Part shown: positions 3,666 through 31,677 of the stretch, one piece after another
Layout: each line of letters starts with the position of its first letter
Numbering within the stretch: the stretch's first letter is position 1
DNA from: Pelosinus fermentans JBW45
GTDB lineage: Bacteria > Bacillota > Negativicutes > DSM-13327
Assembly: GCF_000271665.2 (NCBI RefSeq)
Contig: NZ_CP010978.1
Location: forward strand, 1,148,501 to 1,212,500
Direction of reading: 5' to 3'
DNA: 64,000 bases
Position numbers and translations under genes: made by a program
The notes under the pieces: model-generated
Told to the model about the DNA's origin: nothing
Database searches by the model: none
Seen by the model: only the letters and a program-made list of their open reading frames with translations

Positions 3666-4631
3666 ATGGGCGATGTTACGAAAGAACAATTATTGGATTT
3701 TTATAAAACAATGCTGACAATCCGTAAATTTGAAGATAAGGCAGCCGAATTATTTGCAGCAGGCAGGCTTCCTGGCTTTGTTCATCTGTATAGCGGGGAA
3801 GAGGCTGTGGCTACAGGCGTATGTGCCAGCCTGACAAATAAAGATTATATCACCAGTACTCATCGAGGTCATGGTCATTTAATTGCCAAAGGTGGGCAAG
3901 TGGATAAGATGATGGCAGAACTATTTGCCAAAGTGACAGGCTATTGTAAAGGCAGAGGAGGGTCCATGCATATTGCTGATGTGGATCTGGGTATTTTGGG
4001 GGCCAATGGTATTGTTGGCGCAGGACAGCCCATTGCTGTTGGTGCTGCATTTGCGAATCAGTATCTAAAGAATGATGCAGTTTCCGTATGTTTCTTTGGT
4101 GATGCTGCTTCCAATCGAGGTACCTTTCATGAAGCATTAAATCTGGCATCGGTTTGGAAGCTGCCAGTGATTTTTGTCTGTGAAAATAACCGTTTTGGTA
4201 TTTCTATGAATCAGAAAGATCATATGAATATTGTGGATGTTTCTCAGCGGGCCATATCTTATGGTATTCCGGGAGTCACAATTGATGGCAATGATGTTGC
4301 TGCTGTTTATGAAACGGCAAAGGATGCAATCAGTCGTGCAAGAAAGGGCGAAGGCCCAAGCTTGATTGAATGCAAAACATGGAGACATTATGGACATTTC
4401 CAAGGAGATGCCGGTTTATATAAAGATGCCCAAGAACAAGAAGAGTGGTTGAAAAAAGACCCCATACTAAAATTAGAAGAAAAATTAAAGGTCCTGAAAT
4501 TTGCCAAGGATACGGAACTTAAGGAAATACAACAACAGATACAGGGGCAAATTGATGCGGCGGTTGAATTTGCTGAAAATAGTCCCGAGCCAAGTCCAGA
4601 AGATGTTCTGGCCGATGTGTATGCTCCCTGA
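3666..4631 (+). CDS. acoA: Acetoin dehydrogenase E1 component, alpha subunit (TPP-dependent)
   Basis: With AcoB it forms the thiamine-diphosphate E1 that cleaves acetoin and passes the acetyl unit to the lipoyl arm of E2. The 321 residues fit separate-alpha acetoin E1 enzymes better than the longer pyruvate dehydrogenase alpha. Blocks seen: STHRGHGH (64-71), GRGGSMHIAD (96-105), and the TPP/Mg region ending in ENN (173-175). The usual GDG of the TPP motif reads GDA here (145-147), whereas the second copy at 25151 keeps GDG. First gene of the operon, with taggaggg before its ATG. Substrate is inferred from AcoR and family resemblance. Confidence 0.9.
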   Translation: MGDVTKEQLLDFYKTMLTIRKFEDKAAELFAAGRLPGFVHLYSGEEAVATGVCASLTNKDYITSTHRGHGHLIAKGGQVDKMMAELFAKVTGYCKGRGGSMHIADVDLGILGANGIVGAGQPIAVGAAFANQYLKNDAVSVCFFGDAASNRGTFHEALNLASVWKLPVIFVCENNRFGISMNQKDHMNIVDVSQRAISYGIPGVTIDGNDVAAVYETAKDAISRARKGEGPSLIECKTWRHYGHFQGDAGLYKDAQEQEEWLKKDPILKLEEKLKVLKFAKDTELKEIQQQIQGQIDAAVEFAENSPEPSPEDVLADVYAP

Positions 4632-4744
4632 TTGCCGCTATATTGTTGGTCTGCGGGGAAAGGGATATAGGGTATGACTTTCCTAAGGATTGCTATTTAG
4701 AATCGGTAGTTTGATTGATACAGAACAAAGAAAGGATGAAGAAA

Positions 4745-5713
4745 ATGAAAAAAATGACATATGCCGAAGCCATTCGGGATGGTATGAGAGTAGAAATGCA
4801 AAGGGACGCCAACGTATATATTGCAGGTGAAGATGTAGGGAAATTTGGGGGCTGCTTTGGAGTTACGGCAGGATTATTTGATGAATTTCCTGGTCGGGTA
4901 CTTGATACGCCGATTAGCGAAACAGCGATTGTCGGTCATGCTGTTGGTGCGGCGGCAGCTGGACTACGTCCAGTCGTTGAAATTATGTTCATTGACTTTA
5001 TGGGTGTATGCATGGATGAATTGTTCAATCAGGCTGCAAAGATGCGATATATGTTTGGCGGTAAAGCAAAAGTTCCTATGGTGGTACGGACTCCTTGCGG
5101 CGGCGGTATGACGGCATCGGCTCAGCATTCCCAATGTATAGAAGCATGGTTCACTCATATACCAGGGATAAAAACAATTATGCCTTCAACTCCAGCCGAT
5201 GCAAAAGGCTTAATGGCGGCAGCCATTCGCGATGATAATCCCGTCATGTATATTGAGCATAAGCAGCTGCTAGCCATGAGCGGTGAGGTACCGGAGGGTG
5301 AATATGTCATTCCTTTGGGCAAAGCAGATATAAAAAGAGCAGGATCGGATGTAACCATCGTTGCTTGGTCATGGATGGTTCACAAAGCATTAGCAGCGGC
5401 TGAACAATTAGCAAAAGAAGGAATTAGTGCAGAAGTTGTTGATTTGCGTACGCTGGTTCCTTTAGATAAAGAATGCATTTTGCAGTCTGTTGCAAAGACA
5501 AACAGACTCGTGGTGGTAAACGAAGCGGTTCGTACCAGCGGCTTTGCTGGCGAGATAGCAGCCATTGTTGTGGAAGAAGGTTTTGATTTGCTCGATGCTC
5601 CCATCGTGCGGGTCACTGCTCTTGACATCCCCGTTCCCTTTAATGCGAAACTAGAAGCCGTTTACTTACCCAACGAAACCAAAATCATAGCAGCAGTAAA
5701 GAGCTTATTTTAA
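4745..5713 (+). CDS. acoB: Acetoin dehydrogenase E1 component, beta subunit
   Basis: Transketolase-like beta subunit partnering AcoA; together they form the TPP site at the subunit interface. Typical blocks are GEDVGKFGG, the EIMFIDFM segment, [20 protein letters not shown], and a C-terminal transketolase domain with VDLRTLVPLD and VNEAV. The ATG at 4745 is preferred because agaaagg lies about 9 nt upstream; earlier in-frame starts (TTG 4715, ATG 4736) lack a spaced site. It is about 66% of the way along a single-strand operon and lies 113 bp after acoA. A palindromic repeat follows immediately. Confidence 0.9.
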   Translation: MKKMTYAEAIRDGMRVEMQRDANVYIAGEDVGKFGGCFGVTAGLFDEFPGRVLDTPISETAIVGHAVGAAAAGLRPVVEIMFIDFMGVCMDELFNQAAKMRYMFGGKAKVPMVVRTPCGGGMTASAQHSQCIEAWFTHIPGIKTIMPSTPADAKGLMAAAIRDDNPVMYIEHKQLLAMSGEVPEGEYVIPLGKADIKRAGSDVTIVAWSWMVHKALAAAEQLAKEGISAEVVDLRTLVPLDKECILQSVAKTNRLVVVNEAVRTSGFAGEIAAIVVEEGFDLLDAPIVRVTALDIPVPFNAKLEAVYLPNETKIIAAVKSLF

Positions 5714-5715
5714 AA

Positions 5716-5810
5716 ATGCAAAGGCGCAATGCCGCTGCTGCGGCACACAAAGGAGAACACAAAAAATAAGTTATAAATAAAACCCTTTGTGTCCTTTGCG
5801 TCGTGGTTCA
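5716..5810. repeat. Palindromic intergenic repeat, copy 2
   Basis: Same family as 3371-3467, with the left tip missing and gccgctgctgcggc as inner palindrome. It lies inside the operon between the E1 beta and E2 genes, so it will be transcribed and could form a long hairpin. An open frame running through it into acoC is an artefact. Confidence 0.8.
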
Positions 5811-5884
5811 AATCGTTTAATTCTGTTTTAAAAGAACATGTAGCGTTTTTTATGAAACTTCAAATGATAAAGGAGTGCGAACAT

Positions 5885-7108
5885 ATGGCAGTAGAAATTA
5901 CTATGCCGAAAATGGGTCTGTCAATGGTAACAGGGACCATTGTGAAATGGCTAAAGAATGAAGGGGATGCAGTCAGTAAGGGCGATATTATTCTGGAGGT
6001 AATGACGGATAAACTGACTAATACCATTGATGCTCCAGCAGATGGCGTGCTGCTCAGGATCGTTGCCCAAGAGGAAGAAGAACTTCCCTTTGGTGCTTTA
6101 CTGGGTGTGATTGGTATGGAAGGTGAAGCGGTTCAAGGTGCAAAAGCTGCCAGCAAAGCAGCACCTGCTGCAGAACCAGTGATTTCCGAAACGAAGCAGG
6201 CAGATAGTGGCAGTCGGGAGGTTACGGGAAATAGAGTGAAGGCTTCTCCTCTAGCCCGCAAGTTAGCTAAGGAAAACAATGTGGATTTTACGCAGATCAC
6301 TGGTACGGGTCCATCGGGACGCATTGTCCGAGATGATGTTCTTGCATTTATTGCCCAAGGTGGCAATTCCCAGCAGGCAAGCACACCAAAGAGCATTGGC
6401 AGCCCTGCTCCCATCGAAGAGCAAGAGAACTTTACTCTGACTCCTTATGCCGGCATGCGAAAAGCCGTCGGTGATAATATGTCCCTGAGCTGGTCCGTTG
6501 CACCAAAAGTCAATTACCATGTCAGTACGGATCTTTCTGCATTGCTAGCCTTACGAAAAACCATTAATGAAGAAGCACAAGTTAAGATCACCATTACAGA
6601 TATGCTGGTGAAAATTGTTGCTGTGGCACTTAGAATGTCGCCACACATTAATATCGCATTGGTTGACAAAAATATTAGAAATTATAAAGAAGTTCATGTA
6701 GGGGTGGCTGTTGCCATTAGTCAAGGGTTAGTTGTACCCGTTGTGAAAAATGCAGATATCAAAACCATTTCTCAAATTAGCCGGGAAATTAAAGACTTAT
6801 CCTTGCGGGCAAGAGACAATCAGTTAGGAATGCAGGAAATGCGGGGAGGAACCTTTACAGTTACGAATATCGGCGCTTATCAATCCGTTGATTGGTTTAC
6901 CCCTATCATCAATCAGCCGGAAGCAGCTATTTTAGGAGTAGGCAGAACGGTAGACACACCTGTAGTAGAAAATGGAGAAATTGTAATTAAACCAATGATC
7001 GGACTTTCTTTATCCTTTGATCATCGCGTCATTGATGGAGCGCCTGCCGCTGAATTTTTAGGATTACTCTTAAAACTGATAAAAAAACCATATCAAGCTT
7101 TGATTTAA
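5885..7108 (+). CDS. acoC: Acetoin dehydrogenase E2, dihydrolipoyl acetyltransferase
   Basis: Core acyltransferase that carries the acetyl group from E1 to CoA. Layout: one lipoyl domain (1-75) with the attachment lysine K43 in the TDK motif, an Ala/Pro linker, an E1/E3-binding domain with VKASPLARKLAKE, and a catalytic domain ending with the active-site block SFDHRVIDGA. The ATG at 5885 follows aaaggag with good spacing; longer frames upstream run through the repeat. 407 residues is normal for a single-lipoyl E2. The lipoate genes follow at once, which supports local lipoylation of this protein. Confidence 0.9.
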   Translation: MAVEITMPKMGLSMVTGTIVKWLKNEGDAVSKGDIILEVMTDKLTNTIDAPADGVLLRIVAQEEEELPFGALLGVIGMEGEAVQGAKAASKAAPAAEPVISETKQADSGSREVTGNRVKASPLARKLAKENNVDFTQITGTGPSGRIVRDDVLAFIAQGGNSQQASTPKSIGSPAPIEEQENFTLTPYAGMRKAVGDNMSLSWSVAPKVNYHVSTDLSALLALRKTINEEAQVKITITDMLVKIVAVALRMSPHINIALVDKNIRNYKEVHVGVAVAISQGLVVPVVKNADIKTISQISREIKDLSLRARDNQLGMQEMRGGTFTVTNIGAYQSVDWFTPIINQPEAAILGVGRTVDTPVVENGEIVIKPMIGLSLSFDHRVIDGAPAAEFLGLLLKLIKKPYQALI

Positions 7109-7136: not shown

Positions 7137-7865
7137 ATGGGACGCAAGGGATACTGTATAGAACTTGAAGCTTGCAGTTATGATGAAATTCTTCATTTAC
7201 AGGAGACTCTAAATCAGGCCAGGCAGTTAGGCGCTATCCCCGATACGCTGCTTCTCCTTGAGCATCAGCCTTGTTTTACCATAGGAAGAAAAAAAGGGAG
7301 CTCCAACCATCTGTTAGTCAATCAAAAGGTATTAGATGAACAGCATATCAAAGTGTTTGAATCAAACCGGGGCGGGGATATTACCTATCATGGTCCGGGA
7401 CAACTGATCTGTTATCCTATCATTGGTTTAACAGGAGTGCAGAGGGATGTTCATGCTTACGCCAACAAAATGGAAGAATTATTGATCAGAACACTGGCGT
7501 ATTTTGGGATTGCAGCGATGCGCAAAAAAGAATATCCGGGAGTATGGGTTGAGGATCAAAAAATTGGGGCAATTGGCATTGCGATCCGAAAATGGGTTAC
7601 GATGCATGGCGTTTCTTTAAATGTTTGCCCCAATCTAACTCATTTTTCCTTTATTGTGCCTTGCGGTATTACTTCTTTAGGAGTCACCTCTATGTCCCGG
7701 ATATTGGAGACGGTAGATCCTAGAGCGGTGCGCAATCAATTGCGAAAACAATTTGAAGAATTATTTGAAATACAAACAGAGCTAGTGAGTGTAGAGCGGA
7801 TAAAGGAGATGGTCCACTATGCTAAGACCAGCATGGTTAGTTGTTCCGGCACCCGATCAGGATGA
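7137..7865 (+). CDS. lipB: Octanoyl-[acyl carrier protein]-protein transferase LipB
   Basis: Moves octanoate from acyl carrier protein to the lipoyl lysine of E2 proteins. Signature NRGGDITYHGPGQL (77-90), catalytic lysine K142 in QKIGAIGI and acyl-carrying cysteine C176 in VPCGITSLG are all present. 242 residues is normal. It follows acoC by 28 bp with ataggagg as ribosome site, and its last 47 nt overlap the start of lipA in another frame. Placement in the operon suggests dedicated maturation of the AcoC lipoyl domain. Confidence 0.92.
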   Translation: MGRKGYCIELEACSYDEILHLQETLNQARQLGAIPDTLLLLEHQPCFTIGRKKGSSNHLLVNQKVLDEQHIKVFESNRGGDITYHGPGQLICYPIIGLTGVQRDVHAYANKMEELLIRTLAYFGIAAMRKKEYPGVWVEDQKIGAIGIAIRKWVTMHGVSLNVCPNLTHFSFIVPCGITSLGVTSMSRILETVDPRAVRNQLRKQFEELFEIQTELVSVERIKEMVHYAKTSMVSCSGTRSG

Positions 7866-8676
7866 TCTTGCCCAGATGCAGTCTATGCTGAATGCAGGTA
7901 ATTTACATACGGTATGTGAAAGTGCAAATTGCCCCAACATCGGAGAATGTTTTTCCCAGAAGACTTGTACATTTATGATTTTGGGAAATATATGCACTCG
8001 CAATTGCCGATTTTGTGCCGTAGAGCATGGGCAGTTACCTTTGCCTGTGGACAGGGAGGAACCTAAGGCGGTGGCCTTGTCAGCCAAGCAGCTGAACCTT
8101 GCCTATGTAGTGGTAACTTCTGTCACTCGAGATGATTTGCCTGATGGTGGTGCAGGACATTTTGCTAAAACCATTCAGGAGATTCGTCAGGCATTGCCGA
8201 CAGCGAAAGTCGAAGTGCTAATTCCTGATCTTTTGGGACAGTTTGCATCACTAAAGCAGATTATTGATGCGGGGCCAGAGGTGATTAGTCATAATATCGA
8301 AACCGTGCCACGCTTATATAAAGATGTGCGGCCTCAGGCGATTTATGAACGGTCTCTCCAATTACTCAAACGGGTTAGTAACAGTGGTAAAAATATTGCC
8401 AAAGCTGGTATTATGCTTGGGTTAGGAGAAGGGCATGACGAGGTGCTGCAAACCATGGTTGATATAAAAGCAGTGGGCTGCCAAATCCTGACCATTGGAC
8501 AGTATCTCCGCCCGTCTGCCCAGCATCACCCTATCATGGAATATATCCATCCCACCGCTTTTAAAATGTGGGAAGAGAAGGCATATGAGATTGGCTTTAG
8601 CCAAGTTGTTTCCGGTCCAATGGTGCGGAGTTCCTATCATGCCGGACAATGTTATGCAAAAACCTTTCGTAGTTAA
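7819..8676 (+). CDS. lipA: Lipoyl synthase LipA (radical SAM)
   Basis: Inserts two sulfur atoms into protein-bound octanoate to finish the lipoyl group. Both iron-sulfur sites are visible: the auxiliary cluster cysteines C33, C38 and C44 (C-x4-C-x5-C) and the radical SAM triad C59, C63 and C66 (C-x3-C-x2-C). The C-terminal RSSYHA holds the conserved serine ligand. The start overlaps lipB out of frame by 47 nt and has aaggag 10 nt upstream, which suggests translational coupling. 285 residues is usual for the family. Confidence 0.93.
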   Translation: MLRPAWLVVPAPDQDDLAQMQSMLNAGNLHTVCESANCPNIGECFSQKTCTFMILGNICTRNCRFCAVEHGQLPLPVDREEPKAVALSAKQLNLAYVVVTSVTRDDLPDGGAGHFAKTIQEIRQALPTAKVEVLIPDLLGQFASLKQIIDAGPEVISHNIETVPRLYKDVRPQAIYERSLQLLKRVSNSGKNIAKAGIMLGLGEGHDEVLQTMVDIKAVGCQILTIGQYLRPSAQHHPIMEYIHPTAFKMWEEKAYEIGFSQVVSGPMVRSSYHAGQCYAKTFRS

Positions 8677-9044: not shown

Positions 9045-10445
9045 ATGAAAAAAAAAGTAATTATTGTTGGAGGCGGTCCCGGGGGATATGTGGCAGCCAT
9101 TCGCGCGGCACAACTGGGGGCTGAGGTTCATATTGTTGAAAAGGAAAAAATGGGTGGGACATGTTTAAATGTGGGCTGCATTCCCACCAAAGCCCTTCTC
9201 CATACTGCCAAGCTGTACCACACTGTGCAGGAAGAAGTAAATAATGGACTGCGTGTCGAGGGGATATCCTTGGATTGGCCAGCCCTTATGTCTCGTAAGG
9301 ATACGATTGTAAATCGCCTGGTTCAAGGAGTAAAGGGACTCTTAAAAGCCCATGGAGTGAAGACTCATAGTGGGCAAGCAGTATTGAAAGATGCCCACAA
9401 AGTTCAGGTGGTAGGGGAGACTACTGTAACTCTTGATGCAGATATTATTGTGCTGGCTTCCGGTTCTGTTCCCAGTAAAATCCCTGTACCAGGTGCAGAT
9501 AGTGCTGGAGTCATTGACAGTACGGCAGCCTTAAGTTTACCTAAAGTGCCAAAGTCCTTGGTTATTATTGGCGGTGGCGTTATTGGTACAGAGTTTGCGT
9601 CATTATATAGCTCTTTTGGTACAAAGGTCACAATTGTCGAGATGCTGCCTGAAATATTACCAATGGTAGATCGCCAAATTGCCAAGAGAGTAAAGGAAAA
9701 GTTAACAGAGTGCAACATCGATTTTATGCTGGAAGCAGGATTAAAAGAAATACTGTCAACCTCTAACGGATTAAGTGCCGTAGTGCAAACTGCTGGCAAA
9801 AACCATGAAGTGGCAGGAGAATATATCTTGATGGCCACAGGGCGTAAGGCCAATATTCATAATATGGGGCTTGAAGAAGTGGGAATCCAGACGGAGCGGG
9901 GGAGAATTGTTGTAAATGAATATTTTGCAACGAATATACCTCATATTTATGCAATCGGTGACTGCAATGCTCAGATGATGCTGGCACATGCAGCATCTGC
10001 CCAAGGCGTTGCAGCCGTTGAATATGCGTTAGGTCATAGTCCTTTCTACAATCCTAAAGTCATCCCTTCTTGCATTTATACCATTCCAGAAGCTGCAGGT
10101 GTGGGACTTACGGAAGATGAAGCAGCGGCTCAGGGGATATCCTATAAAGTTGGTTTATTTCCTTTAATGGCAAATGGAAAGTCCCTCATTGAAGGATGTG
10201 AGTTTGGTCTGATTAAATTAATTGTCACTGAAAAAAGCGGAGAAATTCTAGGCGGACATATTTTTGGACCAAGAGCCACTGATTTGATTGGGGAAATAGC
10301 ACTGGCAATGAATCTGGAAGCAACGGTGGATGAAGTCATTGCAACAATCCATGCCCATCCTACCATGAGTGAAGGAATCGCTGAAGCAGCGCTCAGCGTG
10401 AGCGGCAATGCAATCCATTGGCCCCCAGGAGCAAAGATTCTATAA
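9045..10445 (+). CDS. lpdA: Dihydrolipoyl dehydrogenase (E3)
   Basis: FAD flavoprotein that reoxidises the dihydrolipoyl arm of E2 and reduces NAD. N-terminal FAD fold GGGPGGYVAAIRAAQLG, redox-active disulfide in GGTCLNVGCIPTKA, NAD-binding GGGVIGTEFAS near residue 178, and the C-terminal dimer domain with the HAHPTMSE active-site histidine block. 466 residues, full length. It is the last gene of the operon: a perfect 25-bp terminator stem overlaps the stop codon. Confidence 0.93.
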   Translation: MKKKVIIVGGGPGGYVAAIRAAQLGAEVHIVEKEKMGGTCLNVGCIPTKALLHTAKLYHTVQEEVNNGLRVEGISLDWPALMSRKDTIVNRLVQGVKGLLKAHGVKTHSGQAVLKDAHKVQVVGETTVTLDADIIVLASGSVPSKIPVPGADSAGVIDSTAALSLPKVPKSLVIIGGGVIGTEFASLYSSFGTKVTIVEMLPEILPMVDRQIAKRVKEKLTECNIDFMLEAGLKEILSTSNGLSAVVQTAGKNHEVAGEYILMATGRKANIHNMGLEEVGIQTERGRIVVNEYFATNIPHIYAIGDCNAQMMLAHAASAQGVAAVEYALGHSPFYNPKVIPSCIYTIPEAAGVGLTEDEAAAQGISYKVGLFPLMANGKSLIEGCEFGLIKLIVTEKSGEILGGHIFGPRATDLIGEIALAMNLEATVDEVIATIHAHPTMSEGIAEAALSVSGNAIHWPPGAKIL

Positions 10446-15227: not shown

Positions 15228-17096
15228 GTGCGCCACGAAGGAGTGTCCAAGTAGCGTAGCTACTTGAAGGCAGCCATGCTGTACAGATGATGGTGGTAGG
15301 TCCACCGAAATCGCCATACAGGTGGAGGTTTCAAACTACCTTAAGGTGCTGTGGCCAAAATCCATGGTATTGAGCGTTAAGGAAAAGGCAGTGATAAAAC
15401 TGTCAAGTGCGTATTAAGGAGATGAATGAACAAATGAACCACTTACGAAAATGTCGATAGCGTAGAGATTCCATCAAAACCAGGGGGTAGTCGTTAATCT
15501 GGGATAAGTCTAGGGGAAACCTGTTTACTGCCTAGACGGTGGGCGGCATAAAGGTGGCATGAACTTAATACAGGCGTCTGTACGGAACGTGGGAACCCAC
15601 GGGCTGATGTTAAGGGAGTATATCAAGCGGAAGAACCGCAAGATAAGAGTACCAATGCAGTCATGGGGGCAGATTGGGTTGTAGTAGTGATGAAGTTTCT
15701 GTAATGGGAATGGAGCGAAGAACCCGAATTATTCAGTTTCAAGAATAAGTCAACTTTGAAAGGAGGAGGAACTTATGCAAGAAACAAAGCCATACAGTAT
15801 TTCCAAAAGAGCAGTAATTACTGCTTATGAAAGAGTGAAAGCAAATAAGGGAACCTATGGAGTGGATGAGCAATCTATTGAGGATTTTGAGAGAAAGCTA
15901 AATAATAATCTCTATAAGATTTGGAATAGAATGTCGTCAGGAAGTTATTTCCCGAAACCTGTAAAGGCAGTAGCAATTCCAAAGAAGAATGGTGGAACTC
16001 GTATTTTAGGAATACCAACCGTAGAGGACAGGATAGCGCAGATGGTAGCGAAGTTATACTTTGAGCCATGCGTGGAACCGATATTTTACGAAGATTCCTA
16101 TGGATACAGGCCGAATAAATCAGCAATACAGGCAATAGAAGTAACAAGGAGAAGGTGTTGGAGAAAAGACTGGGTTTTAGAGTTTGATATAAAGGGTCTA
16201 TTTGATAACATCAGACATGATTACTTAATAGAAATGGTAAAACACCAAACAAAAGAAGAATGGATTCTTCTGTATGTACAAAGGTGGTTGACAGCACCGT
16301 TTCAAATGGAGGATGGAACGATTGTTCTAAGAACTTCAGGAACGCCACAAGGTGGGGTAATCAGTCCTGTACTTGCCAATCTATTTTTACACTATGTATT
16401 TGATGATTATATGACGAAAGAGTTTCCAGCAATACCGTGGGCAAGATATGCGGATGATGGAATTGCACACTGTGTGTCTCTTAAACAAGCGAAATATTTG
16501 CAACGCAGACTACAGGAACGATTTGAGTGTTTTGGATTAGAATTAAATTTGGATAAGACAAGAATTGTATATTGTAAAGATGATGACCGAATAGGAAATC
16601 ATGAATACACCTCTTTTGATTTTCTGGGATATACATTCAGACCAAGACATGCAAAGAATAAATGTGGAAAGTTCTTCACTAACTTTCTGCCAGCAATGGG
16701 AGAAAAGGCGAAGAAATCCATAAGAAAAGTAGTTAGAAAGTGGAAGTTGCAGTTGAAACCGGATAAGGACTTATTGGACATAGCAAATATGTTCAATAGC
16801 CAAATACAGGGATGGATTAATTACTACACGCATTTTTATAAATCAGAGATATATGAAGTATTAAGATATATTAATGGACGTCTTGTTTACTGGGTTCGCA
16901 AGAAATACAAGAATCGAAAATCAAGACAAAGAGCTGAACATTGGCTTGGAGAAATAGCAAAGCGTGATAGAAAACTGTTTGCACACTGGAAATTTGGGAT
17001 ACTGCCAACGGCTGGATAATGGGAGCTGTATGAGCTGAGAGGTTCACGTACAGTTCTGAGAGAGACTTAGGGGGAAGTTCCCTAGGTCTACTTGCT
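15228..17096 (+). mobile_element. Group II intron, antisense within the response regulator gene
   Basis: The 5' end is GTGCGCC, typical of group II introns. RNA domains I-III fill 15228-15774, the maturase lies at 15775-17019, and a domain V-like hairpin (agctgtatgagct...cgtacagttc, about 17023-17056) and a domain VI hairpin with a bulged A close the element. Limits were set so that the flanks rejoin into an intact regulator frame. The 3' end is therefore inferred (ends cttgct rather than the usual AY), with a few nt of doubt. Orientation is opposite to the host gene, so splicing cannot restore the regulator mRNA. Confidence 0.9.
15775..17019 (+). CDS. ltrA: Group II intron reverse transcriptase/maturase
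   Basis: Intron-encoded protein for splicing and retrohoming. The RT domain carries IPKKNGGTRILGIPT, SYGYRPNKSA, FDIKGLFDNI, TPQGGVISPVLANL and the catalytic YADD (in WARYADDG). It is followed by a maturase domain (about 300-390, IQGWINYYTHFYKSEIYEVL). There is no C-terminal HNH endonuclease domain. At 414 residues it resembles short endonuclease-free types, which are thought to insert using replication-fork primers; this would fit an insertion antisense to the gene. A strong aaaggagg precedes the ATG. Confidence 0.95.
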   Translation: MQETKPYSISKRAVITAYERVKANKGTYGVDEQSIEDFERKLNNNLYKIWNRMSSGSYFPKPVKAVAIPKKNGGTRILGIPTVEDRIAQMVAKLYFEPCVEPIFYEDSYGYRPNKSAIQAIEVTRRRCWRKDWVLEFDIKGLFDNIRHDYLIEMVKHQTKEEWILLYVQRWLTAPFQMEDGTIVLRTSGTPQGGVISPVLANLFLHYVFDDYMTKEFPAIPWARYADDGIAHCVSLKQAKYLQRRLQERFECFGLELNLDKTRIVYCKDDDRIGNHEYTSFDFLGYTFRPRHAKNKCGKFFTNFLPAMGEKAKKSIRKVVRKWKLQLKPDKDLLDIANMFNSQIQGWINYYTHFYKSEIYEVLRYINGRLVYWVRKKYKNRKSRQRAEHWLGEIAKRDRKLFAHWKFGILPTAG

Positions 17097-23697: not shown

Positions 23698-24645
23698 CTA
23701 CGTTCTTTTTAGTATTTCCTGTGCAGTTTCTTCATCCGTGATCAGCACATTGATAAAACGACCGTGGAGAGCTCCTAAAATGGCCTTCACTTTATAGTGT
23801 CCGCCACTGCCTACGCCAATACGAAGCGGAATGGACTGCAGCGTATCCAAAGGTGCAGCAATGAGGCGATCCTCCAGGAAAGAATGGATAAGCTTACCAT
23901 TGATATCAAAAAACTGACCTAAGATGTTGCCTACGGCGCCCAATTCATGGAGGTGTTCCATCTCTGCATTGGTAATGCCATTGCTAACGATTAAAGAGGA
24001 ATCAAGGCTGACTTCTCCTAAGCCAAAGAGGCTTTTGGTACAACTCTGGGCTTTCGCCAAGACACTGCTGACGCCTGGGTCGCTGAGCAGCGCTTTCTTG
24101 ATTTTAGCAGAGCTGACAATCGCTGGTGTATTAAGCCATATCCCTGAAGCGCGCAGCTGCGTTGCAATCAGTTTGACAATTTCTTCTGGGTTTATTTTTT
24201 CACTGCTGTTTAGTCCACCCATTAGTTGAATCACTGTTAGGTCTAAGTCTTTTTTCAGTTGTAGAGCCTTGCCTACTTCATAAATCGAAGATCCCCAGGC
24301 TATGCCTAAAATATCCTGATCCTGCAGTGTTCTTTGCAGGTAATCAGCGCAAGCTTTTCCAACACCTTTTAGATTTTCACTTAATGTGTTGCCAGATGGA
24401 ATCACAATGACCTCTTCTAGTTCAAAACGAGCTTTTAAAGCATACTCCGTATCAAAGCAGGTCCGAAAATGGTCTGCTATTTTTATTTCTACAATTCCAA
24501 GTTCTTTGGCTTTTGCTAAATGACGTGTGATGGTAGGTCGTGAGCAACCTAATTTACTGGCAATATTGTCTTGGGTTAGGCCTTGGACATAGTATAGCCA
24601 TGCAATTTTGGCTATAAATGTAGTTTCGTTATCGTAAATAGACAT
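23698..24645 (-). CDS. SorC-family transcriptional regulator
   Basis: N-terminal helix-turn-helix (about 12-45; QDNIASKLGCSRPTITRHL), then a sugar-phosphate-binding domain with the family blocks GIAWGSSIYEVGKAL and VIQLMGGLN and the C-terminal GVGSGGHYKVKAILGAL. 315 residues. It faces away from the second dehydrogenase operon across a 500-bp gap that contains two palindromes, so it most likely controls that operon and itself. The effector is probably a phosphorylated sugar or glycolytic intermediate (inference from the family). Confidence 0.88.
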   Translation of the reverse strand: MSIYDNETTFIAKIAWLYYVQGLTQDNIASKLGCSRPTITRHLAKAKELGIVEIKIADHFRTCFDTEYALKARFELEEVIVIPSGNTLSENLKGVGKACADYLQRTLQDQDILGIAWGSSIYEVGKALQLKKDLDLTVIQLMGGLNSSEKINPEEIVKLIATQLRASGIWLNTPAIVSSAKIKKALLSDPGVSSVLAKAQSCTKSLFGLGEVSLDSSLIVSNGITNAEMEHLHELGAVGNILGQFFDINGKLIHSFLEDRLIAAPLDTLQSIPLRIGVGSGGHYKVKAILGALHGRFINVLITDEETAQEILKRT

Positions 24646-25053: not shown

Positions 25054-25150
25054 CAAAGCGTAACAATTTAGAATAGTATTAAAGGAGTGATTATTATAGA
25101 AGGATTCTTTCAATCTATCGTAATGACTAAGTATATAGGAGGAATTGACA

Positions 25151-26110
25151 ATGACATTAAGTAACGAAACGTTAATAAGCTGGTATAAGAAAATGCTGCA
25201 TACTCGGTTTTTTGAATCCCAGGTTGATGCTTTTTTTGCAAAAGGTATGATTCATGGTACGACTCACCTGTCAATTGGGCAAGAAGCATTTGCTATTGGT
25301 TCTACTGCTGCGCTGCATGCAGATGATTTAATTACCAGTACCCATCGGGGGCATGGGGAATGCATCGGTAAAGATGCAGACTTAAATCGTATGATGGCTG
25401 AATTGATGGGAAAATCCAACGGTTATTGCAAAGGGAAGGGCGGTTCTATGCATATTGCCGATTTAGAAAAAGGTAATTTAGGAGCCAATGGCGTAGTTGG
25501 CGGTGGCTTTGCCATTGCAGTAGGCGCTGCTCTTACACAGCAGATGAAGAAAACTGGAAAAGTAGTTTTATGCTTTTTTGGCGATGGGGCCAGTAATGAA
25601 GGATCTTTCCATGAAGCCTTGAATTTAGCGGCTATTTGGAAGCTGCCTGTGGTATTTATGTGTACCAACAATCATTATGGTATGTCAATGTCGGTTGCAA
25701 GAAGTACAGCGGTTGCCAATATAGCGGATCGTGCTGCTTCTTATGAGATGCCGGGTATTACTGTGGACGGCAATGATCCTATAAAAGTATATGAAGCAAC
25801 CTTAGCAGCAGTAGAACGTGCTAGAAGTGGTGTAGGTCCCTCTATTGTGGAAGGAATCACGTATCGATGGCTGGGACACTCCAAGAGTGATGCCAATCGG
25901 TATCGGACAAAAGAAGAAATTGAAGCCTGGAAGGAACGATGTCCCATTAAAGCCTTTGAAAAATACCTGATTAAAAGCAATGTAATCTCGCAGCAAGAGT
26001 CAGATGAAATTACGGCTGGTGCGAAAGACGTTATAGCTCGTGCTGTAGAATTTGCCCAACAGGGATCTTACCCTGGTATTGAAACTTTAGAGGAAGATGT
26101 ATACGCATAA
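25151..26110 (+). CDS. Second TPP-dependent dehydrogenase E1 alpha (acetoin/pyruvate type)
   Basis: Paralogue of the E1 alpha at 3666 with the same length class. Motifs STHRGHGE, GKGGSMHIAD and a canonical GDGASNEG...NN TPP site. The ATG at 25151 has aggagg 8 nt upstream; a TTG at 25145 is too close to it. It starts a five-gene operon E1 alpha, E1 beta, E2, E3, lipBA. Because it lacks an AcoR-type regulator nearby and is under SorC-type control, the substrate may be pyruvate or another 2-oxo acid rather than acetoin. The sequence alone does not decide this. Confidence 0.88.
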   Translation: MTLSNETLISWYKKMLHTRFFESQVDAFFAKGMIHGTTHLSIGQEAFAIGSTAALHADDLITSTHRGHGECIGKDADLNRMMAELMGKSNGYCKGKGGSMHIADLEKGNLGANGVVGGGFAIAVGAALTQQMKKTGKVVLCFFGDGASNEGSFHEALNLAAIWKLPVVFMCTNNHYGMSMSVARSTAVANIADRAASYEMPGITVDGNDPIKVYEATLAAVERARSGVGPSIVEGITYRWLGHSKSDANRYRTKEEIEAWKERCPIKAFEKYLIKSNVISQQESDEITAGAKDVIARAVEFAQQGSYPGIETLEEDVYA

Positions 26111-26129
26111 TGTTGTAAAGGAGTAGTGA

Positions 26130-27110
26130 ATGACTATGGCATTGATAACCTATAAAGAGGCTGTAAGACAAGCCATGCAAGAAGAAATGCGCCGGGATGA
26201 AAATGTATTTTTACTAGGTGAAGATGTAGGGGTATATGGTGGCGCTTTTGGCGTATCCTTGGGCATGGTTGAGGAATTTGGCGAAGAACGAGTACGGGAC
26301 ACTCCCATTTCTGAAGGCGTTATTGCAGGTGCTGCGGCAGGTGCTGCTGTGACAGGTCTGCGTCCCATCGCGGAAATTATGTTTAGTGACTTTATTACAA
26401 TTGCTATGGATTCCTTGGTCAATCAGGCAGCTAAAATGCGCTATATGTTTGGCGGTAAAGCAAAGGTTCCTATGGTGCTAAGAATGCCGGGAGGTTCCGG
26501 AACAGGTGCGGCTGCTCAGCATTCACAGAGTTTAGAGGCTTGGCTTGTTCATGTACCTGGTTTAAAGGTAGTTATGCCTTCCACTCCGTATGATGTGAAA
26601 GGTTTATTAAAAACAGCGATTCGTGATGACAATCCTGTTGTATTCATTGAGACAAAAACGGTATATAACAAAAAAGGAGAAGTACCGGAAGAGGATTATG
26701 TCATTCCCTTTGGAGTAGCAGATGTAAAACGAGTTGGCAGAGATGTTACTGTATTTGCTACAGGAGTAATGGTTCACCGATCGTTAGAAGCTGCAGAAAT
26801 TTTAGCGAAAGAGGGCATCGATGTTGAAGTAATTGATCCTCGTACCTTGGTACCTTTTGACAAAGAAACACTGGTAAAATCCGTAATTAAGACCGGTAAG
26901 CTGATCATTGTGCATGAAGCTTGCAAACGAGGCGGTTTCGGCGGTGAAGTGGCAGCTGAAGTGATGGAAAGTGAAGCCTTTGACTATTTGGATGCACCGA
27001 TAAAACGCGTTGCAGGAAAAAACAATCCGATCCCTTATTGTATGGAACTGGAGAAGAGTGCTGTGCCTCAGGTAGATGACATCGTGAACGCAGTTAGGGA
27101 AATTGTATAA
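26130..27110 (+). CDS. Second dehydrogenase E1 beta
   Basis: 326 residues, paralogous to the E1 beta at 4745 over its length. Blocks [33 protein letters not shown] and the C-terminal [16 protein letters not shown] are visible. aaaggag lies 6 nt before the chosen ATG. It forms an alpha2beta2 E1 with the preceding gene, 19 bp away. Confidence 0.9.
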
Positions 27111-27126
27111 GCAGGAGGAATATAGG

Positions 27127-28416
27127 ATGGCAACAGAACTGTTAATGCCGAAGCTCGGAATGACTATGGAAGAAGGTACCATTGTTACCTGGTTTAAAAA
27201 AGTCGGAGATTCGGTTGCGGAAGGCGAAATATTGCTTGAGATATTGACTGATAAAGTAAATATGGAGGTCGAGGCTCCTGCTGCAGGGCAAGTGCTAGCC
27301 ATAATCGCGGCAGAGGGTGATATTGTTGAGGTTAATAAACCTATTGCTTATATTGGTCAGCCGGGAGAAAAGGTAGATAGCCATGCTGCCCAGATTCTAA
27401 AGACTGAAGAACAGCATACAGTGCAAGTGGCAGCAACAACTGCTGCTCCTGTGCAAAGCGCAGAAGGAATTGGCGGTAAAGTGAAAGCCAGTCCGGCAGC
27501 AAAACGCGCAGCCCGTGAGGACGGAATTGATTTACGTGCCGTTCCTCCAAGCGGCCCTGGTGGAAGAATTATTGCAATAGACGTTGCGAATTATAAAGCC
27601 AGTCCGCTGGCGCAAAAAATTGCCCAGGATAAAGGTGTGGAACTAGCGGAAGTTGCAGGTACTGGTATTGGCGGCAAAATCATGAAAAACGATGTTGAGA
27701 ATGTGTTGGTAAAAGCAGGACCTAAAGCCAAAGGAGTTCGTAAACCGTTAGCAGGAATGCGTAAAGTCATCGCCGATCATATGGCAGATGCATGGGCAGC
27801 GCCTCACGTTACTCATAACATGGAAGTAGATATGTCAGGTATGGTAGAACTGCGTAAAAAGCTTATACCTGGTATTGAAAAACGCATCGGTGTAAAGCCT
27901 TCTTATAATGACCTTATTATTAAAGTAGTCGCCAAAGCATTACGGGAATACCAGCAAGTGATTAATGCCAGGCTGCATTCGGATGGTTTGGAAATTTGTG
28001 ATGAAGTGAATGTAGGTATGGCAGTAGCCTTGCCAAATGGTTTAGTGGTGCCAGTCATTAAAAATGCAGACACTCTCAGTATCGAGCAAATTACAAAGCG
28101 GGCAAAAGAATTGGCGGTGCAGGCAAAAGAGGGGAAATTGCTGCCGGACGAAATGTCAGGAGGGACTTTTACCGTAACCAACCTAGGCATGTATGGCATC
28201 GATACATTCTCGCCCATTGTAAATGCTCCAGAGGTTTGTATTCTTGGGGTTGGACAATTGCAGGAGAAAGTAGTTGTCAAGGATGGAGAAATGATCATTC
28301 AGCCGCGCATGTCCCTATCTCTTTCCTTTGATCATCGGGCAGTAGATGGAGCGCAAGCGGCAGAATTTTTAAGAAGAATAAAAGAACTGTTAGAAGATTA
28401 CTTACAGCTTATCTAA
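27127..28416 (+). CDS. Second dehydrogenase E2, dihydrolipoyl acyltransferase
   Basis: One lipoyl domain with attachment lysine in TDKVNME (K43), then what look like two peripheral-subunit-binding-type blocks in a row: VKASPAAKRAAREDGID-L and KASPLAQKIAQDKGVEL. A catalytic domain ends in SFDHRAVDGAQAAEFL. 429 residues, slightly longer than the first E2 because of the doubled binding block. The ATG at 27127 has aggagg 8 nt upstream; an earlier in-frame GTG would overlap the E1 beta stop. Confidence 0.9.
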   Translation: MATELLMPKLGMTMEEGTIVTWFKKVGDSVAEGEILLEILTDKVNMEVEAPAAGQVLAIIAAEGDIVEVNKPIAYIGQPGEKVDSHAAQILKTEEQHTVQVAATTAAPVQSAEGIGGKVKASPAAKRAAREDGIDLRAVPPSGPGGRIIAIDVANYKASPLAQKIAQDKGVELAEVAGTGIGGKIMKNDVENVLVKAGPKAKGVRKPLAGMRKVIADHMADAWAAPHVTHNMEVDMSGMVELRKKLIPGIEKRIGVKPSYNDLIIKVVAKALREYQQVINARLHSDGLEICDEVNVGMAVALPNGLVVPVIKNADTLSIEQITKRAKELAVQAKEGKLLPDEMSGGTFTVTNLGMYGIDTFSPIVNAPEVCILGVGQLQEKVVVKDGEMIIQPRMSLSLSFDHRAVDGAQAAEFLRRIKELLEDYLQLI

Positions 28417-28450
28417 AATGGATATGAGTCTCTTTTAAGGAGGAAAACCG

Positions 28451-29833
28451 ATGAACTATCAGGTTGTAGTACTAGGGGGAGGTCCAGGCGGTTATGTAGC
28501 TGCCATTAAAGCTGCTCAATGCGGACTAAAAGTGGCATTGGTGGAAAAAGATTCTCTAGGGGGAACATGCCTGAATCGGGGATGTATTCCTACCAAGGCT
28601 TTGCTTAGAAGTGCAGAAGTCTATGAAACGATCAATAAGGCAAAAGAATTTGGTATTGAAGCTTCCCCTGTCAGCGTGGATGCAAAGAGAATTTTTGCTC
28701 GCAAGGATGGTATTGTAAAACAGCTGGTTAATGGCGTAAAAGGTTTAATTCAGGCGAATAAAATCGATTTATATATAGGAAGCGGTAAGGTGATTACCCC
28801 TCACAAAGTGGAAATTAATGAAAAATCAGGAATTACAACGATTACAACCGAAAAACTAATCTTGGCTACGGGCTCAAAGCCTTTTGTTCCAGCGATTGCC
28901 GGATTTGATCTTCCGGGGGTCATAACCAGTGATGAAGCCTTAGATTTGGGCGTCATTCCAAAATCCATGGTGATTATTGGCGGCGGCGTTATCGGCTTGG
29001 AATTTGCTTATTTAATGCAGACCTTTGGCTGCAAGGTAACCATCATTGAGATGATGCCTGTTCTTTTACCTATGGCAGACAAAGAAGCAGTAGAAGTGCT
29101 GGTAAGATCTTTGGAAAAATTGGGAGTGACTTTCTTTACCAATGCCAAAGTGAGCAAGATAGCAAAGGCAGAAGCTAATTTAGTCGTTGAGTATCAGATT
29201 GATAATATAGCTTATAGGGTAGAAGGGGAAAAAGTACTGGTTTCAACTGGGCGGGCAGTAAGCATTGCAGGAATTGAAACCCTACATTTACATGGGAAAA
29301 AGGGTATCCCGGTGAATGCACAAATGGAAACCAGTATTTCAGGAGTTTACGCGATTGGAGATGTAGTAGGTGGTATTCAACTGGCACATGTGGCTTCCGC
29401 TCAAGGGATTGTTGCAGCGCAAAACGCAGCGGGAATGAATTCTTCCTATCATGGTGATGCCATTCCTTCTTGCATTTATACGAATCCGGAAGTTGCTTGG
29501 GTTGGTATGAATGAACAAGCAGCTAAAGAAAAATATGGCAATATAAAAGTGGGGAAATTTCCATTTCAAGCGAGTGGCAAGGCCATGGCTTACGGAGAAA
29601 CAAATGGCTTTGTAAAAATAATTTGTGAGGAACAATATGGTGAAATCGTGGGAGTGCATATTGTTGGACCTCATGCCACCGATCTGATTTCGGAAGGCGT
29701 ATTGGCAAAATCCATGGAAGCTACCCTGGAAGAACTGGCCCATGTGATTCATCCTCACCCTACCTTGTCAGAAGCCATTATGGAGGCCGCTCACGTGACA
29801 ATGGGCCAAGGTATACACTTCATAGCAAAGTAG
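28451..29833 (+). CDS. lpdA: Second dihydrolipoyl dehydrogenase (E3)
   Basis: 460-residue flavoprotein with the FAD fold GGGPGGYVAAIKAAQCG, disulfide GGTCLNRGCIPTKA, NAD fold GGGVIGLEFAY and C-terminal HPHPTLSE. It is clearly paralogous to the E3 at 9045. It is followed by 314 bp of repeat-rich spacer before the lipBA fusion gene, so that gene may be only partly coupled to this operon. Confidence 0.93.
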   Translation: MNYQVVVLGGGPGGYVAAIKAAQCGLKVALVEKDSLGGTCLNRGCIPTKALLRSAEVYETINKAKEFGIEASPVSVDAKRIFARKDGIVKQLVNGVKGLIQANKIDLYIGSGKVITPHKVEINEKSGITTITTEKLILATGSKPFVPAIAGFDLPGVITSDEALDLGVIPKSMVIIGGGVIGLEFAYLMQTFGCKVTIIEMMPVLLPMADKEAVEVLVRSLEKLGVTFFTNAKVSKIAKAEANLVVEYQIDNIAYRVEGEKVLVSTGRAVSIAGIETLHLHGKKGIPVNAQMETSISGVYAIGDVVGGIQLAHVASAQGIVAAQNAAGMNSSYHGDAIPSCIYTNPEVAWVGMNEQAAKEKYGNIKVGKFPFQASGKAMAYGETNGFVKIICEEQYGEIVGVHIVGPHATDLISEGVLAKSMEATLEELAHVIHPHPTLSEAIMEAAHVTMGQGIHFIAK

Positions 29834-29972: not shown

Positions 29973-29996
29973 ATGCTAGGAAACAAGAAAGAATGA
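29973..29996 (+). other. Seven-codon frame behind a strong ribosome site
   Basis: aaaggagg, 8-nt spacer, then MLGNKKE and a stop, right before the palindrome at 29998. It could be a leader peptide or the stump of a gene start cut off by the repeat. Nothing more can be said. Confidence 0.25.
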
Positions 29997-29997
29997 T

Positions 29998-30083
29998 TTA
30001 ACCGCAGAGGCGCAGAGTGCGCTGAGAGGGGCTTTCTAACCCTATCTATATTTTCTCTGTGTTCTCTGCGCCTCTGCGGTTAA
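29998..30083. repeat. Palindromic intergenic repeat, GC-rich variant
   Basis: Perfect 20-bp arms beginning ttaaccgcagaggcgcagag, separated by a 46-bp centre. Same plan as the family at 3371 (a tip reading AACC-GC/AC-AGAGG or AAAGG) but a different sequence variant. It lies in the leader of the lipBA fusion gene. Confidence 0.8.
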
Positions 30084-30147
30084 AAAAGGGCGCGTCAGCG
30101 TTTTTCTTATTATTGTTTAAAATTGCTGTGGCTTAGGAGGTGGAGTT

Positions 30148-31677
30148 GTGATTGTATTAAATTGGGGACTTACTCCCTATCAGCATGGCTGGGAATTTCA
30201 GCACTCCTTTGTCAAAGGGCGGCGCCAGGGACAGATCAATGAAGATGCATTGGTATTGCTGGAGCATCCCCCCGTAATCACTCTAGGACGCAAAGGAGAA
30301 AGGGCCAATATTCTTGCAGATGATGCTGTGCTTGCAGCCAAGGGCTGCGAAGTTTGCCAGGTGGATCGGGGCGGGGATGTTACTTTTCATGGTCCGGGTC
30401 AGTTAGTAGGCTATCCCCTGCTGGACCTGCGTCATTATGGCCAGGATGTTCATGCTTATGTGGAGAAACTGGAAGAAGTCGTAATTCGCACCTTGAGAGA
30501 TCATGGAATTGAAGCGGTTAGAGATAAGGAATATACAGGTGTGTGGGTAGGCAAGGAAAAGATCTGCGCCATTGGTATTGGTATGAAAAGCTGGCTGAGC
30601 TATCATGGTTTTGCTCTCAATATTGACGCTGACTTATCCTATTTTCAATTGATTACACCTTGCGGGATTACAGGGCGAGGCGTAACCAGCATGGCGAAAA
30701 TACTGGGTAAAGCACCCCAAATGCAGACGGTACGAGAAACAGTAACCACCCACTTTATGGCTGTATTTGGCATCGAACATTGGGAGATGGCAGAAGGACG
30801 CTGGTTAGGAGAAACAGTAAAACCATCTTGGCTGAAGGGGCATGTGTCAGGAAATAGCAGTGTCAAAGAGATGCATGGGATGTTGGATGAATTCTCTTTG
30901 ACCACGGTTTGTTCTGGGGCTCATTGCCCTAATATTGGTGAGTGTTATGCGTCGAGGACAGCTACATTTATGATATTAGGTAGCCAATGTACAAGGCGCT
31001 GCCGATTTTGTGCTGTTCCTAAAGGTGTTGTGCAGCCTGTAGATCAAGATGAACCGCAGCGTGTCGCTCAAATGGTGAAGAAGTTAGGGCTTAACTATGT
31101 TGTTATTACCTCCGTTACACGTGATGATCTTGCCGATGGGGGGGCTGCCCATTTCTCACAAACCATAAAAAGAATCCGTGAGCTTTCTCCAGAACTCGTA
31201 ATTGAAGTTTTAATTCCGGATTTCCAAGGTGAAGAAAGTGCCTTAGACATCATTATTGCTGCTCAACCGGAAGTAATCAATCACAATGTGGAGACCATCC
31301 CCGCCTTATACTCGCGTGTGCGCCCACAAGCCGATTATCAACGGTCTTTAGATGTGTTGCAATACGTGAAGAAAAATGCTCCTCAAATCGTAACCAAGTC
31401 AGGGATTATGGTTGGTCTGGGAGAATCACCGGCTCAGGTAGCAGCTACGCTGGCTGACTTACGCAGTGTAGGTTGTGATAGCTTGACAGTAGGACAATAT
31501 CTGGCTCCTTCCCCAGAGCATATTCCAGTTGCAGAATATATAGTGCCGGAACAGTTTCAATCATACCAGCAATTAGCCAAACAGCTTGGCTTTTTTCATA
31601 CTGCCTGTGGTCCATTGGTACGCTCTTCTTACCATGCCGCAGAAGGATTTTCCCCGAAAATAAGTCTTTCCTCTTAG
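30148..31677 (+). CDS. LipB-LipA fusion: octanoyltransferase plus lipoyl synthase
   Basis: One 509-residue frame carries both lipoate assembly enzymes. Residues 1-225 are LipB: DRGGDVTFHGPGQL, K138 in EKICAIGIG, C172 in TPCGITGRG. Residues from about 226 are LipA: auxiliary cluster C255, C260, C266; radical SAM C281, C285, C288; and C-terminal RSSYHA. All catalytic residues of both halves are present, so a bifunctional enzyme is likely. GTG start with taggagg 7 nt upstream. In the first operon the same two proteins are separate genes overlapping by 47 nt. A fusion would pass octanoyl-E2 directly to sulfur insertion (inference). Confidence 0.93.
   Translation: MIVLNWGLTPYQHGWEFQHSFVKGRRQGQINEDALVLLEHPPVITLGRKGERANILADDAVLAAKGCEVCQVDRGGDVTFHGPGQLVGYPLLDLRHYGQDVHAYVEKLEEVVIRTLRDHGIEAVRDKEYTGVWVGKEKICAIGIGMKSWLSYHGFALNIDADLSYFQLITPCGITGRGVTSMAKILGKAPQMQTVRETVTTHFMAVFGIEHWEMAEGRWLGETVKPSWLKGHVSGNSSVKEMHGMLDEFSLTTVCSGAHCPNIGECYASRTATFMILGSQCTRRCRFCAVPKGVVQPVDQDEPQRVAQMVKKLGLNYVVITSVTRDDLADGGAAHFSQTIKRIRELSPELVIEVLIPDFQGEESALDIIIAAQPEVINHNVETIPALYSRVRPQADYQRSLDVLQYVKKNAPQIVTKSGIMVGLGESPAQVAATLADLRSVGCDSLTVGQYLAPSPEHIPVAEYIVPEQFQSYQQLAKQLGFFHTACGPLVRSSYHAAEGFSPKISLSS

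Follow-up and report, generated by a model that had tools for sequence, protein, structure and literature searches.

The window analysed here is a stretch of 64,000 nucleotides from Pelosinus fermentans JBW45 (contig NZ_CP010978.1, positions 1,148,501 to 1,212,500), and it contains two operons that encode E1, E2 and E3 components of a dehydrogenase complex. The second of these lies on the plus strand and comprises the genes for E1α (25145–26110), E1β (26130–27110), E2 (27103–28416) and E3, a dihydrolipoyl dehydrogenase (28451–29833), with E1α, E1β and E3 being assigned from their frames and profile matches. E1α is of the pyruvate/acetoin dehydrogenase type and scores 365.7 bits against TIGR03182, which is under the cut-off of 393.85; judged from its sequence, the substrate of the complex may be pyruvate, acetoin or another compound. 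The E2 chain contains two E3-binding stretches and one lipoyl domain (residues 12–84), the presumed acceptor of the enzyme described below. A SorC/DeoR-type regulator (23698–24645, minus strand) is divergent from the operon and also adjoins it in the seven related loci that we examined. The last gene of the E1α–E1β–E2–E3 operon (25145–29833 from E1α to E3) is lipBA, which encodes a fused octanoyltransferase-lipoyl synthase.

The gap between E3 and lipBA measures 118–314 bases in the window and four aligned congeners. In the window it accommodates a dispersed palindromic repeat of about 100 bases (29985–30095, strand not assigned), both ends of which read AACCGCAGAGGCGCAGAG. This repeat has at least 63 matches in its own genome, some of them being both strands of one place; scoring covered 40 of the 127 candidates.

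The lipBA gene occupies positions 30148–31677 of the plus strand as one single frame of 509 codons plus a stop, with a GTG start and a TAG stop. The LipB domain extends over about residues 1–210 (30148–30777) and is followed by a linker of residues 211–224 (30778–30819), placed from the alignment and the structural model, and by the LipA domain over about residues 225–501 (30820–31650). Pfam LplA-B_cat matches residues 11–203 (E = 3.9e-48) and Radical_SAM matches residues 276–437 (E = 5e-19). Both NCBIfam models are exceeded as well: the product scores 172.6 bits against TIGR00214 (lipB, cut-off 83.55) and 360.7 bits against TIGR00510 (lipA, cut-off 310.25). The LipB pattern of RGGxxTxHGPGQ, a lysine and PCG is found in full, with RGGDVTFHGPGQ at residues 74–85 containing His81, KICAIGI at 138–144 starting with Lys138 and TPCGI at 170–174 containing Cys172. 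In the LipA domain, the auxiliary motif CSGAHCPNIGEC at residues 255–266 provides Cys255, Cys260 and Cys266 (CX4CX5C), CTRRCRFC at 281–288 provides the radical-SAM cysteines Cys281, Cys285 and Cys288 (CxxxCxxC), and VRSSY at 491–495 contains the RSSY motif (492–495). The catalytic roles of these LipB and LipA residues we take to be those known from the literature on both enzymes. Thus, an earlier note on this DNA was right to describe a natural LipB–LipA fusion with complete domains and to place every expected catalytic-residue motif within the 509-residue frame. For LipA, PMC12246082 treats the serine of RSSY and a mechanism with two clusters.

The frame is conserved well beyond this genome. 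All 1530 bases are present with no insertion or deletion in four of the seven other genomes of the genus (91–95% identity; five genomes with our own), and the frame is intact in three genomes of another family (69–71% identity). A stop or frameshift between the domains, which the earlier note had named as the observation that would speak against a fusion, is absent from all of these. Our genome is assembled as one 5.38 Mb contig. A sequencing or assembly error that joined two genes is practically negligible as an explanation: chance and sequencing error are excluded because length and frame are equal in the five genus genomes and the frame is whole in the three of the other family. The artefact is therefore refuted by eight genomes, and lipBA is a genuine, conserved LipB–LipA fusion. 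Pairwise among the five genus genomes, both domains evolve with dN of 0.02–0.06 and dS of 0.11–0.57, and these rates indicate that both are under purifying selection. The junction (residues 205–235) evolves faster, with dN of 0.06–0.13 and dS of 0.15–0.39. The core of the linker, GRWLGE or a one-residue variant of it, is found in all eight Negativicutes proteins.

Conservation extends to the surroundings. The order E1α–E1β–E2–E3–lipBA is kept in all seven related Negativicutes loci examined, with the SorC/DeoR-type regulator ahead. The genus has this regulator divergent from the operon, and the other family has both on one strand. Downstream of lipBA, four genus loci carry a galactitol-type PTS, a class II aldolase and a large sigma-54-type regulator, as does the window. 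In the other family E3 is about 105 residues longer. In the single case tested (L130; 8398–10098, minus strand) the extra part is an N-terminal lipoyl domain (residues 6–78), which the fused protein might use as a second acceptor.

The first operon of the window presents the same two activities as separate genes, in the order E1α–E1β–E2–lipB–lipA–E3. E1α, E1β and E2 occupy 3666–7108, lipB 7137–7865, lipA 7819–8676 (taking the first ATG as start) and E3 9045–10445, all on the plus strand. The lipB and lipA genes overlap by 47 bases in different frames, so the overlapping pair described in the earlier note and its view that the window holds both the split and the fused state stand. The two states are 46% identical in LipB and 51% in LipA. 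In the best trees the split pair is not the sister of lipBA, although a sister placement is not rejected by an AU test (p = 0.485), and the pair may or may not be the parent of the fusion. Between the two operons, an ORF at 15775–17019 (plus strand) resembles a group II intron reverse transcriptase, as judged by eye.

Fusions are uncommon. Within the class, at least eight of 380 genomes (our own included) carry a fused single frame among 40 genomes with any LipB/LipA match, and the fusion is hence dispensable for lipoylation. A sample of the phylum contains at least three in 398 (our own, G000, and G553 and G711). In the phylum of G764 (locus L031, titled Deltaproteobacteria), at least 12 of 45 genomes are fused. 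The LipA of G775, which is among the 12, is degenerate; an additional fusion, in G777, is broken into two frames and was left uncounted. In a phylum sample around a Chloroflexi-titled genome, at least one of 400 is fused (G825); divergent ones would be missed at the limit of E = 1e-90 that was used. These counts are lower bounds, drawn from the top-scoring and some suspicious rows, and genomes overlap between the searches. As open-frame lengths from the translated search count through single stops (G011, G809), frames were checked by our own translation; in this way the frame of G711, listed with one TGA, was found to be whole.

Inspection of 20 further long or stop-marked loci, a part of all such loci, gave one LipB–LipA fusion (G775), one ligase-like protein joined to LipA (G502) and 18 that are not LipB–LipA fusions. 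The G502 frame (L195; 1799–4375, minus strand) encodes 859 residues with a lipoate-ligase-like N-terminus, a middle without assignment and a full LipA. It matches NF053790 partially, at 498.9 bits for a cut-off of 800, and an E2 piece lies nearby. Two other candidates were dismissed. A recoded stop within tandem lipB–lipA genes was considered, but the six loci that were opened (L018, L027, L029, L030, L033 and L070) each have one ordinary stop separating the two frames; tandem pairs align across both genes because tblastn reads through stops, which inflates their number. A partial fusion in Azospirillum is actually a separate lipA frame of 355 residues preceded by chance similarity.

The G775 protein (L205; 1487–3301, minus strand) is a fused LipB–LipA of 605 residues in which LipA lacks the radical-SAM CxxxCxxC motif and has RTSY in place of RSSY. 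This LipA domain is decaying or repurposed. Such a relative from another phylum invites the idea that one domain of the window's protein is active and the other inactive or regulatory. We judge this very improbable, as the window's protein retains all motifs and both of its domains are under purifying selection.

The number of origins was addressed with a quick tree of joined LipB and LipA domains from 55 rows. The fusions fall into three clades, consisting of eight Negativicutes, two sequences from G553 and G711 and 11 from the G764 phylum; the SH-aLRT value of each clade is 99 or 100. A single clade of all 21 fusions is weakly rejected (AU p = 0.027, one of four AU tests and uncorrected), whereas a common origin for Negativicutes and G553/G711 is not (p = 0.309). 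When G825 is added, the best tree shows four places, and G825 grouped with Negativicutes and G553/G711 is likewise not rejected (p = 0.423). These trees make two origins likely, and three or four are possible. Five rows, L029, L067, L150, L070 and L059, did not enter the joined trees, being long, broken or of doubtful place; earlier exclusions concern duplicate loci from the same genomes (L003, L024–L026 and L129–L138), the LipA piece L139 and L022.

An E2 or E3 gene lies within 1.5 kb of all 22 fused genes, of 23 of the 39 split pairs (including L150, the broken fusion of G777) and of 33 of the 84 lone lipA genes. Adjoining the G775 fusion is a sequence that matches E2 weakly (26.5% identity, E = 4e-12), and with this fusion 23 stand beside E2 or E3. 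As this set consists of related rows drawn by similarity, some with early contig ends, the figures describe a tendency and are no statistical test. Nor is such linkage a hallmark of the fused state, because 23 of the 39 unfused pairs share it. In G553 the E2 adjoining the fused lipBA (L136; 5505–7115, plus strand) has a C-terminal carboxymuconolactone decarboxylase (AhpD-like) domain.

The order lipB–lipA is found in 31 of the 39 pairs, and eight of the 39 are one in-frame stop away from fusion, in a set that the search enriched for in-frame pairs. The path from tandem genes to a fusion is accordingly short, and the loss of one stop in a tandem lipB–lipA operon could give rise to it. The fusion may then be neutral, a stop having been lost between in-frame genes and the product retained as harmless. 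This is a serious possibility, if somewhat short of an even one; the single-stop pairs and the low frequency of fused genes in the class (8 of 380) are in its favour. The state is, however, maintained in two Negativicutes families and in 11 divergent genomes of another phylum, and repeated gain suggests some benefit. Neutral origin is in any case compatible with the function that we favour.

The gene content of the genus is one line of evidence for that function. In its eight genomes the copy numbers of E2 (PF00198), LipB and LipA are equal within each genome (2, 2, 3, 2, 2, 0, 0 and 0). GcvH and an LplA/LipM-like protein of 280–290 residues are present in all eight, including the three that lack LipA, and their genes are about 4.7 kb apart in our own genome. 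Three genomes (G003, G004 and G007) are less than 90% complete, and of the three without E2 and LipB/LipA two (G005 and G006) are rated 100% complete. The matched counts, together with a GcvH that is present everywhere, indicate that LipB and LipA travel with E2, within one lineage of eight non-independent genomes where whole operons may be gained and lost as units. GcvH is presumably served by the LplA/LipM-like protein, as the gene content suggests. With the complete domains and motifs, the conserved frame and the operon linkage also considered, lipBA probably encodes a bifunctional enzyme of lipoyl assembly that is dedicated, through E2, to the 2-oxoacid- or acetoin-type dehydrogenase of its own operon, where we infer both activities and the E2 substrate from sequence and gene neighbourhood. 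The one-for-one census of E2 and LipB/LipA, with GcvH apart, points to lipoylation routes that are split by target within a single genus.

In such a dedicated enzyme, the LipB domain would transfer octanoate from acyl carrier protein via Cys172 to the lipoyl-domain lysine of E2, after which the LipA domain, with the help of its auxiliary cluster, would add two sulfur atoms in a radical-SAM reaction. What the cell gains from the fusion would, on the most economical view, be that the two enzymes are supplied at a fixed 1:1 ratio and made together with the E2 that they serve. An AlphaFold2 model of the product, built from an alignment of 78 rows, consists of two confident domains (mean pLDDT 92.7) joined by a weaker stretch of residues 211–240 (block means 77, 68 and 77) that includes the linker. 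With a pTM of 0.69 the model does not position the two domains confidently against each other and so offers no evidence of a channel. The channelling of octanoyl-E2 put forward in the earlier note is thus unsupported: what passes between the two steps is an acyl group bound to a protein, the model shows no confident domain arrangement, and for its other E2 the same genome has LipB and LipA as two proteins. A fixed 1:1 lipoyl-assembly enzyme for its own E2 is the safer reading.

The octanoylated lipoyl domain itself would move between the two steps, leaving one site and docking at the other, and a flexible tether could help in this. The LipA site might in that case be held near the octanoylated lipoyl domain, such that octanoyl-E2 would receive its sulfurs before diffusing off. 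Fusions that stand by E2 or E3 in several distinct clades and a linker core common to two genera are consistent with such a hand-over. We nonetheless consider it unlikely, given a model with no confident domain arrangement, a linker that evolves faster than the domains and a first operon that manages with no tether. LipA turnover is slow, being limited by the rebuilding of the auxiliary cluster, so the hand-over is unlikely to be rate-limiting, which also counts against it. Less likely still, in our estimate, is that LipB–LipA fusions were selected several times as a cis-acting module dedicated to one complex, in which a flexible linker would let the same E2 domain be octanoylated and then sulfurated with no release. 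Should both domains work, one purifiable protein would cover the whole pathway of E2 lipoylation from octanoyl-ACP, and the LipB-to-LipA hand-over would become directly testable by comparing the fused with the cut enzyme.

LipB, LipA and their pathway are textbook knowledge. A description of a LipB–LipA fusion was not found in the literature searched, which covered open-licence papers; the architecture may well be listed already in automatically compiled databases. Solved structures match each half of the lipBA product and none matches both (eight distinct sequences, E up to 1e-10). Compared with LipB (TIGR00214; solved relatives 2qhs, 2qht and 1w66), the same whole domain and His/Lys/Cys motifs are present, but LipB is normally a separate protein whereas here LipA follows in the same chain. 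Compared with LipA (TIGR00510; solved relatives 4u0o, 5exi and 8ugo), the product shares the complete domain with its RSSY and its two cysteine motifs, and a normally separate enzyme is C-terminal to LipB. The bifunctional lipoate-protein ligase/lipoyl synthase NF053790 (LplA_LipA_fuse) likewise has an attachment enzyme ahead of LipA. Its partner is LplA and not LipB, however, and the lipBA product matches the LipA part alone, at 391.4 bits, below the cut-off of 800. Plasmid pAtCFBP7129b of Agrobacterium tumefaciens has the same order of E1α, E1β, E2 and lpdA followed by a lipoyl synthase gene, but its lipA stands alone, unlike the fused lipBA.
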